A model generated the notes under the pieces. It did not search any database. It had not been told where the DNA came from and saw only the letters and a list, made by a program, of their open reading frames with translations. From Gammaproteobacteria bacterium (GTDB lineage Bacteria; Pseudomonadota; Gammaproteobacteria; Pseudomonadales; Azotimanducaceae), in the NCBI GenBank assembly GCA_026707945.1, contig JAPOVV010000115.1, positions 485,646 through 549,645 on the forward strand: 64,000 nt of DNA, read 5' to 3'. This document shows, one piece after another, positions 3,378 through 9,755 of this stretch (position 1 is its first letter; every line of letters begins with the position of its first letter). Both the position numbers and the translations under genes were made by a program.

Positions 3378-4073
3378 ATGGCTTTTATTGAATTGACGAG
3401 AGTAGTTAAGAACTACGAAAAGGGCAGTGAAGTTGTGCACGTTCTGCAGGACTTGAATTTGTCTTTGCACGAGGGTGACTTCCTAGCCTTGATGGGTCCA
3501 AGCGGGAGTGGCAAGAGCACGCTGCTGAATTTGATCGGAGGTATTGACCAGCCGACAGCAGGGAGCGTTCTCGTCGACGGTGCTAACTTGGGGAACATGT
3601 CAGGATCTCAACTTGCGAAGTGGCGATCAGAAACCATTGGGTTCGTGTTTCAGTTCTACAACTTGCTGCCATTCTTGACCGCGGAGCGCAATGTCGAATT
3701 GCCCTTGCTTCTTACGAATCTAGGTGGCTCGCAACGAAAAGAAAACGCTTTGACTGCTTTACGGACGGTGTCTCTGGAGGACCGTGCGAAGCACAAGCCG
3801 GGTGAATTAAGCGGCGGTCAACAACAGCGTGTCGCGATAGCCCGCGCAATCGTTGCGGATCCAAAAATCTTGGTATGCGATGAACCGACCGGCGACCTAG
3901 ATCGCCAAAGTGCGCAGGAGATTCTCGCACTTCTTGAAACCCTAAACGAACGATTCGGCAAGACCGTCATCATGGTGACGCATGACCCGCTAGCAGCAGA
4001 ACACGCCAAAACCGTATTGCACCTTGACAAAGGTGTTCTCGTGGAGAGCGGGCAAGCGGAGGTTTCGGCATGA
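3378..4073 (+). CDS. ABC transporter ATPase, MacB/LolD type
   Basis: The 231-residue protein is a stand-alone nucleotide-binding subunit of the MacB/LolD/FtsE family, which energises FtsX-like permeases by mechanotransmission rather than classical transport. Walker A is GPSGSGKST (40-48), the signature is LSGGQQQ (144-150), and Walker B is ILVCDEP (164-170) with catalytic Glu169, followed by the D-loop GDLD. All catalytic residues are present. The start ATG follows an AAGG-type ribosome site. The stop overlaps the first permease start (ATGA), which suggests translational coupling. It works with the two permeases downstream and the adaptor upstream. Confidence 0.92.
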   Translation: MAFIELTRVVKNYEKGSEVVHVLQDLNLSLHEGDFLALMGPSGSGKSTLLNLIGGIDQPTAGSVLVDGANLGNMSGSQLAKWRSETIGFVFQFYNLLPFLTAERNVELPLLLTNLGGSQRKENALTALRTVSLEDRAKHKPGELSGGQQQRVAIARAIVADPKILVCDEPTGDLDRQSAQEILALLETLNERFGKTVIMVTHDPLAAEHAKTVLHLDKGVLVESGQAEVSA

Positions 4074-6451: not shown

Positions 6452-7864
6452 GTGACTGACGCCGACGTCCAAGCTTCGGACCAACAACGCGCTCAGCGGC
6501 GACTAGGCGGCGCAGAGGCGAGTTTGCTTGACGGCTCAATTCCGCGGCAGCTGTTCAGGTTAACGGTGCCCATGTTGCTGGGATTCTCATCGATGATGAT
6601 CGCATCGTTAATCGACACGTACTACGTGGGACAGATTGGCACGATCGAGCTGGCCGCCGTGACCTTGACATTCCCACTCGTCATGGGCTTCTCAAGTCTT
6701 TCCATGGGCTTCGGAATAGGTGCGACGTCGATCATCTCTCGGACAGTGGGCGCAGGTGATTGGGCGACGGCTCAACGAATCGCGACGCACACACTGATGC
6801 TCGTGATTTGTTTCGTGTCGGTGCTCAGTGTCGTCGGTTTTGTGTTTGCGGAATCGATCTTCGTGATGCTCAACGCGCGCGAGGAACTCTTCCCAATCGC
6901 GGTGCAGTACACCTATATCACGCTGCTAGGCGTACCAATCCTAGCCGTTCCGATGGTAGGCGGCATGATGCTGCGATCATTTAACGACGTGCGTTCTCCA
7001 GCCATCATCATGGTCGCTGGGGCCATCATTCAAGTGATCATTGCGCCGGCGCTCATCTGGGGAATTGGCTCGTGGGAAGGACTCGGCGTCTTCGGTTCGG
7101 CGTGGTCATTCGTGCTTTCTCGATTAATCGTCGCGATTTACGCAATCGGGTTGTTCCGACGCCGCGGTTTCATTCAGCATCCAGGTTCATTTAAGGCTTT
7201 TCGAACGTCTGTTCGCGAAGTGATGCGGCTGGCGATACCTTCAATGGCGAGTCAAGTCTTGATGCCTGTCTCGATGTATCTGATCATGATGCTCATCGCG
7301 TTGTATGACAATCATGTCGTCGCCGCATATGGTGTCGCGACGCGAATCGAGTCGATGACCATGATCGTGATCATGGCGATGAGTTCAAGCATGGGTCCTT
7401 TTGTCGGTCAGAACTTTGGCGCGCGCCGATTCGACCGGATTCAAAGCGCGCTTCGGATGAGTTATGGGTTCTGTTTTACCTATGGACTCATCGTTACCGT
7501 GATCCTGGTGTTACTTGGAGGCGCAATTTCAGGCGTCTTTAGAGACGACCCGGCAGTTGTCGCTGTCGCAACTGAGTTCTTCTACATCGTCCCGATCACG
7601 CTTGGGATCATGAGTGTCGCGATGATCGCGGGTAGTACGTTTGTGGCATATGGTGAACCGATACCGTCTTTCGTGTTGTCCATGTTCCGCATGTTCGTGG
7701 TGCTGTTACCACTCTGTTATTTGCTGAATTGGCTCTTTGGTTACATCGGTATCTTCATCGCGATCGCGATCACGAACGGTTTGGTAGGATTGATTGCGGT
7801 TTTTTGGCTCGGCACAATGACCAAGCGATTTGAGAGACAGCTATCGCCGCAAACGGCGTTGTAG
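6452..7864 (+). CDS. MATE family multidrug/cation antiporter
   Basis: A 470-residue polytopic inner-membrane protein with about 12 hydrophobic segments in two homologous halves. The N-half begins LFRLTVPMLLGFSSMM and the C-half VMRLAIPSMASQVLM, the usual MATE pseudo-repeat. Proteins of this family exchange drugs or cationic metabolites for Na+ or H+. The start is a GTG at 6452 preceded by GTGAGACG, a weak ribosome site; the first 30 residues are hydrophilic and may be partly untranslated. The gene lies 39 bases after the ABC exporter operon, so it may belong to the same efflux unit. The substrate cannot be inferred. Confidence 0.9.
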   Translation: MTDADVQASDQQRAQRRLGGAEASLLDGSIPRQLFRLTVPMLLGFSSMMIASLIDTYYVGQIGTIELAAVTLTFPLVMGFSSLSMGFGIGATSIISRTVGAGDWATAQRIATHTLMLVICFVSVLSVVGFVFAESIFVMLNAREELFPIAVQYTYITLLGVPILAVPMVGGMMLRSFNDVRSPAIIMVAGAIIQVIIAPALIWGIGSWEGLGVFGSAWSFVLSRLIVAIYAIGLFRRRGFIQHPGSFKAFRTSVREVMRLAIPSMASQVLMPVSMYLIMMLIALYDNHVVAAYGVATRIESMTMIVIMAMSSSMGPFVGQNFGARRFDRIQSALRMSYGFCFTYGLIVTVILVLLGGAISGVFRDDPAVVAVATEFFYIVPITLGIMSVAMIAGSTFVAYGEPIPSFVLSMFRMFVVLLPLCYLLNWLFGYIGIFIAIAITNGLVGLIAVFWLGTMTKRFERQLSPQTAL

Positions 7865-7877
7865 ACCCAACTAAATT

Positions 7878-7892
7878 CGAGCGATTGGCTCG
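7878..7892. terminator. Short hairpin between convergent MATE and flavodoxin genes
   Basis: The sequence CGAGC-GATTG-GCTCG forms a 5-bp stem with a 5-base loop, followed by TTAATAAA. It lies 14 bases after the MATE stop and, before the TnpB element inserted, would have lain a few bases from the flavodoxin stop, so it could serve both convergent genes. The stem is short and the call is tentative. Confidence 0.35.
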
Positions 7893-7901
7893 TTAATAAA
7901 T

Positions 7902-7929
7902 GGCGCTTATGTAGTTACTTGTGGTTTTC
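7902..7929 (+). repeat. Left terminal inverted repeat of the TnpB element
   Basis: The 28-bp repeat begins GGCGCTTATGTAGTT and ends TGTGGTTTTC. Relative to the right copy only the three central bases (7917-7919) differ. The 124 bases between this repeat and tnpB hold no recognisable gene. Confidence 0.75.
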
Positions 7930-8053
7930 GCTTAGTGGTTACGTGATCCCCCGCCTATCTTATTGATTTTGTGAGGTAATCAGGCACAACTGCCGACGAG
8001 TCGACCCGACGATTTCTTTTGCGCAGTCACGGATATGAGCTTAAGCTTCCGCT

Positions 8054-9259
8054 GTGATTACGTATACCTATAAGGCCAAGCTAAACGCCCATACGCATCG
8101 GAACCTCGCCGAGTTCCTGACGCAGCAACGGCTGCTTTACAACGGGGCGCTGCAGGAACGCATCGACTGCTACCAGAAAACGGGTGACAGCATCAGCCTC
8201 TTCGACCAACGCGGGTCGCTGACGACGCTTCGCCACACCGATGAATGGTTTGGCAAGTTTGACCGCTGGTGTCAGGATTCGGCGTTGGTCCGGGTCGACC
8301 GGGCGTTCCAGCGGTTCTTCCGCGAAGGTCGCGGGTTTCCGCGCTTCAAGTCGTCGAAGTGCAGCGTGATGTCGTTTGAGACCCTCCAGATCAAGCCCAT
8401 GTTTAACGGCAAGTACGGATCCGTGAAGATCAAGGGGATCGGGCGGTTCCGCTGGCGACAGGACGATCGATGTGACGATCGCGACAAGGTCAAGCTCCTA
8501 CGGGTCGTGCAACGACCCACCGGGGTCTTCATCCAGTTGGTGTGCGACGTAGAGACCCGACGCATCGGACTGAACCGTGCCATCGGCATCGATGTCGGGG
8601 TAAGCGTGAACGCGGCGTTGTCCGATGGTACGGTGATTCCACGCCATACCCCGGACCGTGCCGAGATCCGCCGCAAGCAACGTGCCTTGAGTCGCTGCAA
8701 GCGGGGGTCGAAGGGTCGTGCGAAACGACGGCAGGCGCTTGCGCGGGCGTGTTATCGGGCGCGTGTGCAGCGTCACAATGCCCTGCATCGTCTCACCAGC
8801 GAGATCGTCAAACTTCACGGCAAATGGATTGCGGTGGAAGATCTCGACATCGAGGCGATGACCGCATCGGCGGCCGGTACCGCCGATTGCCCAGGACGCC
8901 GGGTCAAGCAGAAGACCGGATTGAATCGCTCGATCCTCGACCAGAATTGGGGGATGTTCATCATGCAACTCGACTACAAGGCTGCAAGCGCCGGTGGTCA
9001 GTTGGTGCGCGTCGACCCCAAACACACCACGCAACGATGTTCTCGTTGTGGTGGTTTACCGAACAAAGCGTTAACGCTGAAGGATCGTTGGTATCACTGC
9101 ACCCATTGCGGATATGGTGACGACCGCGACGTGAACGCGGCGAAGAATGTGTTGCTCAAGGGGTTTGCGCTCTTTGATGCGGGTGGTTCTTTTCCCGCAG
9201 TGTCGGCAACTGAAACACAGAATCAAGACGTGGGTCTTGATCGACATGAAACCGTGTAA
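8054..9259 (+). CDS. tnpB: TnpB (OrfB), RNA-guided nuclease of the IS200/IS605-IS607 type
   Basis: The 401-residue protein is a TnpB, the RNA-guided DNA nuclease family from which Cas12 arose. It appears intact: the N-terminal OrfB domain (about 1-165), RuvC-I GIDVGVS with Asp180, RuvC-II IAVEDLDI with Glu262, the four-cysteine zinc ribbon (Cys329, 332, 349, 352), and RuvC-III DRDVNAAKN with Asp359. The start is GTG at 8054 with only a weak ribosome site. Known TnpB guide RNAs derive from the 3' end of the gene and the element's right end, so the guide here would read into 9295 onward; this is inference. The gene is GC-richer than its surroundings, which suggests transfer. Confidence 0.93.
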   Translation: MITYTYKAKLNAHTHRNLAEFLTQQRLLYNGALQERIDCYQKTGDSISLFDQRGSLTTLRHTDEWFGKFDRWCQDSALVRVDRAFQRFFREGRGFPRFKSSKCSVMSFETLQIKPMFNGKYGSVKIKGIGRFRWRQDDRCDDRDKVKLLRVVQRPTGVFIQLVCDVETRRIGLNRAIGIDVGVSVNAALSDGTVIPRHTPDRAEIRRKQRALSRCKRGSKGRAKRRQALARACYRARVQRHNALHRLTSEIVKLHGKWIAVEDLDIEAMTASAAGTADCPGRRVKQKTGLNRSILDQNWGMFIMQLDYKAASAGGQLVRVDPKHTTQRCSRCGGLPNKALTLKDRWYHCTHCGYGDDRDVNAAKNVLLKGFALFDAGGSFPAVSATETQNQDVGLDRHETV

Positions 9260-9266
9260 TGAGTGT

Positions 9267-9294
9267 GAAAACCACACAGAACTACATAAGCGCC
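9267..9294 (-). repeat. Right terminal inverted repeat of the TnpB element
   Basis: This is the inverted partner of 7902-7929, with 25 of 28 positions matching. It begins only 7 bases after the tnpB stop codon, and its outermost base (9294) is part of the stop codon of the convergent flavodoxin gene. Confidence 0.75.
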
Positions 9295-9755
9295 TAATAG
9301 ATTCCGGCCTCTAATCCGATCGCCATCGCCAAACCTAGTTCTCGACAAGCTTCGATTTGATCCGGTGTCGCGACACCTTTCACGATGATCGGTTCCTGGA
9401 CTTCGATAAAAGGGTAGCCTTTGCCGATGCGTCGAATTGCCGTCAACGCGCCGGTCCCGTCGTTCCCCGCACTAATGAAAATGCCGCAAGGCAACGGTTT
9501 GATCTTACCTTCAACTTCGTAGAAGGTCCGATCGAGAAAGTCCTTCATACCGCCTGACATGTAACCGAAATTCTCAGGTGTACCTAGTATCAAGCCATCT
9601 GCAGCAAGCAGGTCAGATGCGTCGGCTTCGAGGGCTTGCTTCATCACAACGTCAGTCGATTCGATTTCATCGTCTGTGGCTCCCGCGTGTACTGCGTCCG
9701 CCATACGTTGCGTCTGACCTGATTTAGAGTGATAGACGATCAGAAGTCGTGGCAA
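9294..9755 (-). CDS. Flavodoxin-like (WrbA-type) NAD(P)H-dependent FMN oxidoreductase
   Basis: The 153-residue protein has the flavodoxin fold. The phosphate-binding loop is YHSKSGQTQRMADAV near the N-terminus, and the FMN-ring loop is TPENFGYMSGGMKDFLDR (about 59-76). Such proteins bind FMN and reduce quinones or other acceptors in the cytoplasm. The start appears to be TTG at 9755, because no ATG or GTG precedes the conserved LLIVYHSKSG strand; the ribosome site is poor. The C-terminal GLAMAIGLEAGIY is complete, but its stop codon is formed at the border of the TnpB element, which inserted exactly there. Function should be intact apart from its lost natural 3' flank. Confidence 0.85.
   Translation of the reverse strand: MPRLLIVYHSKSGQTQRMADAVHAGATDDEIESTDVVMKQALEADASDLLAADGLILGTPENFGYMSGGMKDFLDRTFYEVEGKIKPLPCGIFISAGNDGTGALTAIRRIGKGYPFIEVQEPIIVKGVATPDQIEACRELGLAMAIGLEAGIY

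Follow-up and report, generated by a model that had tools for sequence, protein, structure and literature searches.

A tnpB gene framed by inverted repeats as probable cargo of a non-autonomous IS1595-type transposon in Azotimanducaceae

The window analysed here is a stretch of 64,000 nucleotides from a gammaproteobacterial genome of the family Azotimanducaceae, and it contains a tnpB gene that lies between terminal inverted repeats (TIRs) and is bounded by an 8-bp duplication. Quite probably, this element is a non-autonomous transposon of the IS1595 type (DDE), which would be mobilised in trans by an IS1595-family transposase and whose insertions are each predicted to be protected by the TnpB. 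This protein, regarded as the Cas12 ancestor, has been described as a part of IS200/IS605 and IS607 elements. Comparison of sequences suggests that in the units considered here TnpB likely spreads as the cargo of an IS1595-type transposon and not via its usual transposases.

The initial annotation described an intact tnpB between inverted repeats, and this was confirmed: the repeats are complementary at 25 of 28 positions (89%), and the gene has a 401-aa frame with a GTG start. Among the inverted pairs listed for positions 7700–9500, this pair is the longest. The gene is the only one between the repeats, and the element contains no Y1 transposase gene. IS200/IS605 elements are characterised by the lack of TIRs and of target duplications, whereas both TIRs and an 8-bp duplication are present here. 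The features of the element are as follows.

7892..7895, + strand: TAM-like oriented motif RW|TW (here GT|TA), spanning the outer edge of the left duplication; seen in 17/17 left vs 3/22 right A-type junctions
7894..7901, no strand: left copy of the 8-bp target duplication, TAATAAAT; 7 of its 8 positions agree with the right copy, and all 8 agree at the C9 element of the same genome; empty site found for a sister insertion
7902..7929, + strand: left terminal inverted repeat, GGCGCTTATGTAGTTACTTGTGGTTTTC, from the inverted-pair search; 23/28 bases common to one end of an IS1595-family transposase gene (L005/L223)
8054..9259, + strand: tnpB, 401 aa, RNA-guided endonuclease family, from the ORF, profiles and motifs
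9074..9294, + strand: putative omega-RNA scaffold, from the tnpB 3' end through the right repeat (5' limit uncertain), based on third-codon conservation
9263..9277, + strand: GTGTG/CACAC hairpin entering the right repeat, from the RNAalifold consensus of 20 right ends; helix without double-sided changes
9267..9294, − strand: right terminal inverted repeat, from the inverted-pair search, with a shuffle-controlled score
9295..9302, no strand: right copy of the 8-bp target duplication, TAATAGAT, from the sequence
9295..9314, + strand: predicted guide, consisting of the duplication and the downstream flank, placed by the position of the right end

The duplication was at first regarded only as likely. 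It no longer needs this qualification, because the C9 copy of the element has a perfect AATATTTA duplication and because a sister insertion has an empty site. The joined flanks of this sister copy (L269, genome G028) align with continuous sequence in the genome of the window itself (L215, genome G000), with 456 of 468 bases identical, and the octamer TTGAGTAA is present in a single copy at the empty site and in two copies at the filled one. The comparison of empty sites proposed in the initial annotation therefore succeeded for the sister copy, while the window insertion's own empty site was not found among the fetched loci. One of the 29 joined flanks had an empty-site partner; for the other 28, none was found among the fetched loci. 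A target duplication of 8 bp is a character of the IS1595 family, and the tnpB units have it.

The own genome (3.80 Mb, 117 contigs) gave six tnpB matches, and five of these genes carry the anatomy of inverted ends and duplication. Loci were scored by the number of matches over 22 nt of the repeat plus the octamer matches, and a score of 24 or more was taken as a pass. The window copy scores 26, the C37:18604 and C88 copies 28 each, and the C8 copy 29. The C9 copy is 92% identical to the window copy and has the same ends; its score of 23 is under the cut-off because its left repeat has drifted, and its tnpB ends early, at 388 aa. No ends were detected at the C114 copy. The tnpB units of this genome fall into two end families, A (beginning with GGCGCTTATGTAGTT) and B (beginning with GGGACTTATA).

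As a control, the flanks were shuffled once at 66 loci and five times at a further 56 (280 shuffles); the maximum score was 23, and none reached the cut-off. Protein searches among 206 genomes of the family revealed TnpB relatives in 28 genomes with the window TnpB as the query and in 30 with the B1 TnpB. A part of the listed places was fetched and 82 loci were examined; 24 of them lie within 250 bp of the end of a stretch, leaving 58 assessable. The cut-off was reached at 24 of these 58 loci, two of which (L278 and L297) have an octamer match of only 6/8, and 34 failed. The ends of the A copies L227, L266, L267, L270 and L272 are recognisable, with scores under the cut-off. Outside the family, 32 loci were fetched from a sample of 249 genomes of the phylum (29 usable), together with 10 of the 30 listed plasmid loci; enough flank was available for 36 of these 39 usable matches, of which 34 failed and two passed. 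Both passes are from Bosea plasmids (Bosea sp. RAC05 and ANAM02) and have 8/8 duplications. The four plasmid loci in which tnpB is accompanied by an annotated IS200/IS605 tnpA (L561, L564, L565 and L566) all failed. Another candidate, L554 (score 28), was judged to be an artefact: its pair is palindromic and 2.8 kb apart, its octamers are self-complementary, and the pair is gone at a narrower span. Scans with exact 14-mers of genome contigs (at least 117 stretches) and 90 viral contigs gave no convincing end pair among the matches listed. The L195 locus has one weak end pair, whose members mismatch at 8 and 9 of 28 positions.

Further copies between the same ends, a check named in the initial annotation, are thus present in the own genome and in relatives. 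That the inverted-end anatomy of these TnpB loci is real and recurrent is well supported, and the loci are best interpreted as TnpB-carrying units of the DDE type. Three B2 copies (L229, L230 and L298) have a common interrupted tnpB frame with an open part of 311 aa; all three keep their ends and two keep duplications. Given that the ends are kept despite the broken frame, these copies may travel as decayed cargo or use a shorter TnpB. In the G024 genome, 22 A-type matches (L409–L421, L427 and L428), many of them at contig ends, are suggestive of a recent burst.

When the own genome was searched with the A end, an intact ORF of 326 aa (L005/L223) came up, which matches the NCBIfam model transpos_IS1595 with 143 bits (cut-off 75) and Pfam DDE_Tnp_IS1595. 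It had been suggested that the 28-bp ends might be found with a DDE transposase, and similar ends do surround this IS1595-family gene of the same genome. One of them has 23 of 28 bases in common with the window repeat, so that the A ends resemble those of an IS1595 transposase element. The second repeat-like end adjoins an IS110 element; the helper's own duplication is not visible because the IS110 element occupies one end. The tnpB units differ from such an element in that they carry no transposase, and we infer that an IS1595-family transposase, with L005 as the candidate, moves them in trans. The A-end pattern gave 48 matches in four genomes (0 with the reversed pattern as a control): 37 adjoin tnpB, seven adjoin L005-type transposases or their fragments, and one of the four others resembles a tnpB unit cut by a contig end. 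In G024, the genome with the most A-type matches (22), there was no L005-type match at E 1e-15. As for the B ends, the nearest found belong to the IS1595 copies L221 and L222 and are only similar; L222 has a perfect 8-bp AATCAAAT duplication. A transposase with exact B or C ends was not found, and none was identified for the Bosea ends either; a search of plasmids with the Bosea right end listed six records, with no transposase under any of them. From the more than 100 IS1595-family matches listed for 16 of 18 genomes, 36 loci were examined. Two of the 36 score 22 or more for repeat and duplication, so that they serve only as partial controls; the ends beside L005-type genes were inspected manually instead.

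Three further IS1595-family genes (L482, L483 and L484) from three other genomes of the genus are 34–36% identical to L005 and have A-like ends (such as CGCTCATTTGTAGTTAAGTGTTG). In L474 (up to base 3979; G000:C114), L268 and L422 (G028) and L417 (G024), the IS110-family element, which matches Pfam Transposase_20 and DEDD_Tnp_IS110, meets IS1595-type repeat ends, and the contact is at the same base each time. The junction sequence is tccatacc|TTC, with tccacacc in L417. These junctions occur beside an IS1595 gene and beside tnpB units, and the outer flanks are alike in all four; it looks like the IS110 element targets IS1595-type repeat ends.

The window TnpB matches the Pfam models Cas12f1-like_TNB and OrfB_IS605 and the NCBIfam model guided_TnpB (221 bits, cut-off 100). 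It also matches the IS200_TnpB model, below the cut-off of that model. A CxxC/CxxC zinc ribbon and the RuvC D-E-D motifs are present as well; the RuvC residues D180, E262 and D359 were assigned by motif. Among its relatives of solved structure, as found by sequence, are the ISDra2-type TnpB entries 8bf8 and 8h1j, and entry 9j09.

A tree was built from 80 TnpB rows of at least 330 residues, a limit that leaves out the B2 copies. It places the TIR-borne proteins in three lineages, namely A (which includes Bosea), B and C, and all three also contain rows without detected ends. A single clade of the 46 rows from the three lineages was rejected (AU p = 7.9e-8; the grouping was named after seeing the tree, the tree was a quick one, and long branches were flagged). 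We therefore read the tree as at least three captures, with back-transfers possible. With two end families in one genome and three TnpB lineages, the anatomy is more widespread than the initial annotation noticed.

The proposed life cycle of the element includes the following steps. An IS1595-family transposase would cut and join at the repeats, making the 8-bp duplication. Processing of the tnpB mRNA would yield an omega-RNA with a scaffold that stops at the right repeat or shortly beyond it, and the guide would be composed of the duplicated octamer and the downstream flank, so that it would be renewed at each landing site. In the empty site, the protospacer would be the octamer with the downstream flank, and the motif would be directly upstream. 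TnpB would then cut the empty site, and repair from the element-bearing copy would restore the element, which corresponds to homing as reported for IS200/IS605 TnpB.

An oriented motif was found at the outer edge of the duplication. When the junctions of the A lineage are read in the direction of tnpB, RW just outside the octamer and TW at its start occur in 17 of 17 left vs 3 of 22 right ends (Fisher p = 2.6e-8), and B-lineage junctions have G at X-1, immediately preceding the octamer, in 19 of 19 left vs 5 of 21 right ends (p = 3.4e-7). Both p-values are optimistic, because the copies are related, some insertions contribute both a left and a right row, and the counted data are those in which the motif had been discovered. 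The A count excludes the IS110 junctions (left L268 and L422, right L417) and two left junctions with no repeat (L275 and L276); an additional left junction, L449 (AA|TT), came after the count and fits the motif. Three of the 19 B left ends are without a confirmed duplication: L298 and L437 have no matching one, and L430 has only one side. All 29 distinct flank octamers of the A lineage, including those with only one side in view, begin with T followed by A or T, and 13 of the 29 end in A. In the C lineage, WT|GA is present in 4/4 left ends, one C end (L299) being without a duplication. The motif is one-sided and varies with the TnpB lineage and not with the type of end; it is therefore TAM-like. 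TAMs of IS605 TnpBs are longer than the motif seen here. Since the motif lies 5' of the duplication, the guide would be the duplication with the downstream flank. We infer that the oriented motif belongs to TnpB and not to the transposase.

The opposite assignment, in which a transposase with two unlike ends and an asymmetric target sets the motif, is possible but rather doubtful. It is in line with the difference between the left and right repeats (25/28 alike) and with the AT-rich octamers, which likely reflect the preference of the transposase; in addition, one preprint equates the TAM of IS200/IS605 elements with the preferred insertion site of their transposase (PMC11870625). Against it, the G of the B lineage is preserved in 19/19 left ends across several unlike end types. 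Furthermore, RW|TW is present in only one of eight hand-read A-like ends near L005-type genes (one of 12 after adding four ends of more distant transposases), a weak control, because both sides are pooled and a motif set by the transposase would be expected at about half of the ends plus background. Nine such ends were found and one, an IS110 junction, was dropped; some of them have up to 8 mismatches with the A repeat, and several adjoin fragments.

A farther-reaching version of the TnpB-set motif is that bacterial DDE transposons took up TnpB at least three times and built it into their life cycle, that the guide is rewritten at each insertion as octamer plus flank with the TAM at the outer edge of the duplication, and that the TnpB–RNA complex helps to choose, not only to defend, IS1595 insertion sites. 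The near-perfect presence of the TAM at insertions would then be explained by the part of the complex in picking the sites. As a whole, we consider this version unlikely.

Signs that would fit a guide RNA come from the 3' end of tnpB. Third-codon identity among the nine full-length A copies rises from 0.67 in codons 1–280 to 0.87 in codons 341–400 (Mann–Whitney p = 5e-9), and the final 33 nt include 25 positions at which all nine agree; in the four B1 copies, the 3' rise is small. The consensus fold of the A right ends contains the GTGTG/CACAC hairpin, which extends into the right repeat and has no double-sided changes. The B-lineage right ends (16 rows) have a common fold that includes three pairs with double-sided changes, each in 8 or 9 rows, the alignment being gappy there. 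The best match in an Rfam search has an E-value of 0.28, which is at the level of chance. The tnpB 3' end shows RNA-level conservation up to the repeat, which fits an omega-RNA scaffold using the repeat, a use also predicted for Fanzors. In other TnpB systems, the guide is 20 nt long, and this length was used here. That the guide is set by each target site, as the initial annotation supposed, has only indirect backing, in the oriented TAM-like motifs and in this conservation.

These data also bear on the idea that the transposon is real and its TnpB is a passive passenger, merely swept up and without a working guide RNA. The in-frame stop in the B2 copies and the short frame of the C9 copy speak for it, whereas the RuvC motifs, the climb of third-codon conservation toward the 3' end in the A copies, where omega-RNAs are located, the double-sided changes of the B-lineage stem and the oriented flank motifs specific to each TnpB lineage make it improbable.

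The interpretation of the element as an ordinary IS200/IS605 (IS1341-like) solo tnpB, moved as a single strand by a Y1 transposase and flanked by repeats and octamers that are due to chance or local sequence, is hardly tenable: although the protein matches the IS200_TnpB model below its cut-off and IS elements with TnpB as the sole protein, e.g., IS1341, are named in PMC3627910, independent copies whose octamers differ have their ends at the same position, the L269 copy is refuted as such a case by its empty site, and all four plasmid loci with an annotated tnpA fail the cut-off.

When the proposed TnpB-carrying IS1595-type units are compared with IS200/IS605 and IS607 elements (ISDra2 and kin), the tnpB family is the same, and the TAM-like motif lies on the left, as the TAM does there. 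For TnpB of the IS200/IS605 type, PMC10278001 (Nety et al. 2023) places the omega-RNA at the tnpB 3' end and right end, with the guide taken from the flank, and the same arrangement is expected in the units. The units differ from these elements in having TIRs and 8-bp duplications and in lacking their own transposase gene; according to PMC3627910, TIRs and duplications are both absent from transposons that depend on tyrosine or serine enzymes. The closest parallel to the bacterial TIR-borne tnpB units is the Fanzors. Eukaryotic Fanzor1 and captured Fanzor2 (Fanzor2*) are likewise TnpB-type nucleases in transposons with TIRs and target duplications, some of them non-autonomous, and Fanzors in DDE transposons are described in PMC3627910 and PMC10711439. 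The anatomy of the tnpB units is alike; they appear to work like a Fanzor-type capture and are not counted as a member of it. They differ in being bacterial, with a bacterial TnpB and IS1595-type ends. For Fanzor elements, it was predicted that the guide-RNA scaffold includes the repeat and the duplication (PMC10711439). Unlike in this prediction, most of the octamer cannot be a fixed scaffold in the bacterial units, since the octamer varies. TnpBs with other transposases are mentioned without detail in PMC10278001, and a preprint (PMC11870625) reports that TnpB of IS200/605 elements acts in homing and gene drive. Our literature search, which covered few subscription papers and some sources in part, gave no account of a bacterial TnpB unit with TIRs and an 8-bp duplication.

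CRISPR-associated transposons (Tn7-like) combine RNA-guided Cas machinery and a DDE transposase in one mobile system. The window element differs from them in that it holds tnpB alone and its guide would come from its flank. With three TnpB lineages and traceable end families, the bacterial TIR-borne set offers natural experiments on the adaptation of the guide RNA and TAM to a new transposase. It also supplies TnpBs whose guides can be predicted and whose TAM-like motifs can be tested, and it allows one to ask directly if DDE elements profit from homing in the way that peel-and-paste elements do.

A feature of the window insertion is its position relative to the flavodoxin-like gene (9294–9755, − strand). 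The insertion point of the tnpB unit coincides exactly with the 3' end of this gene, whose stop codon straddles the edge between the repeat and the duplication, and the predicted guide (9295..9314) would be antisense to the 3' end of the gene.
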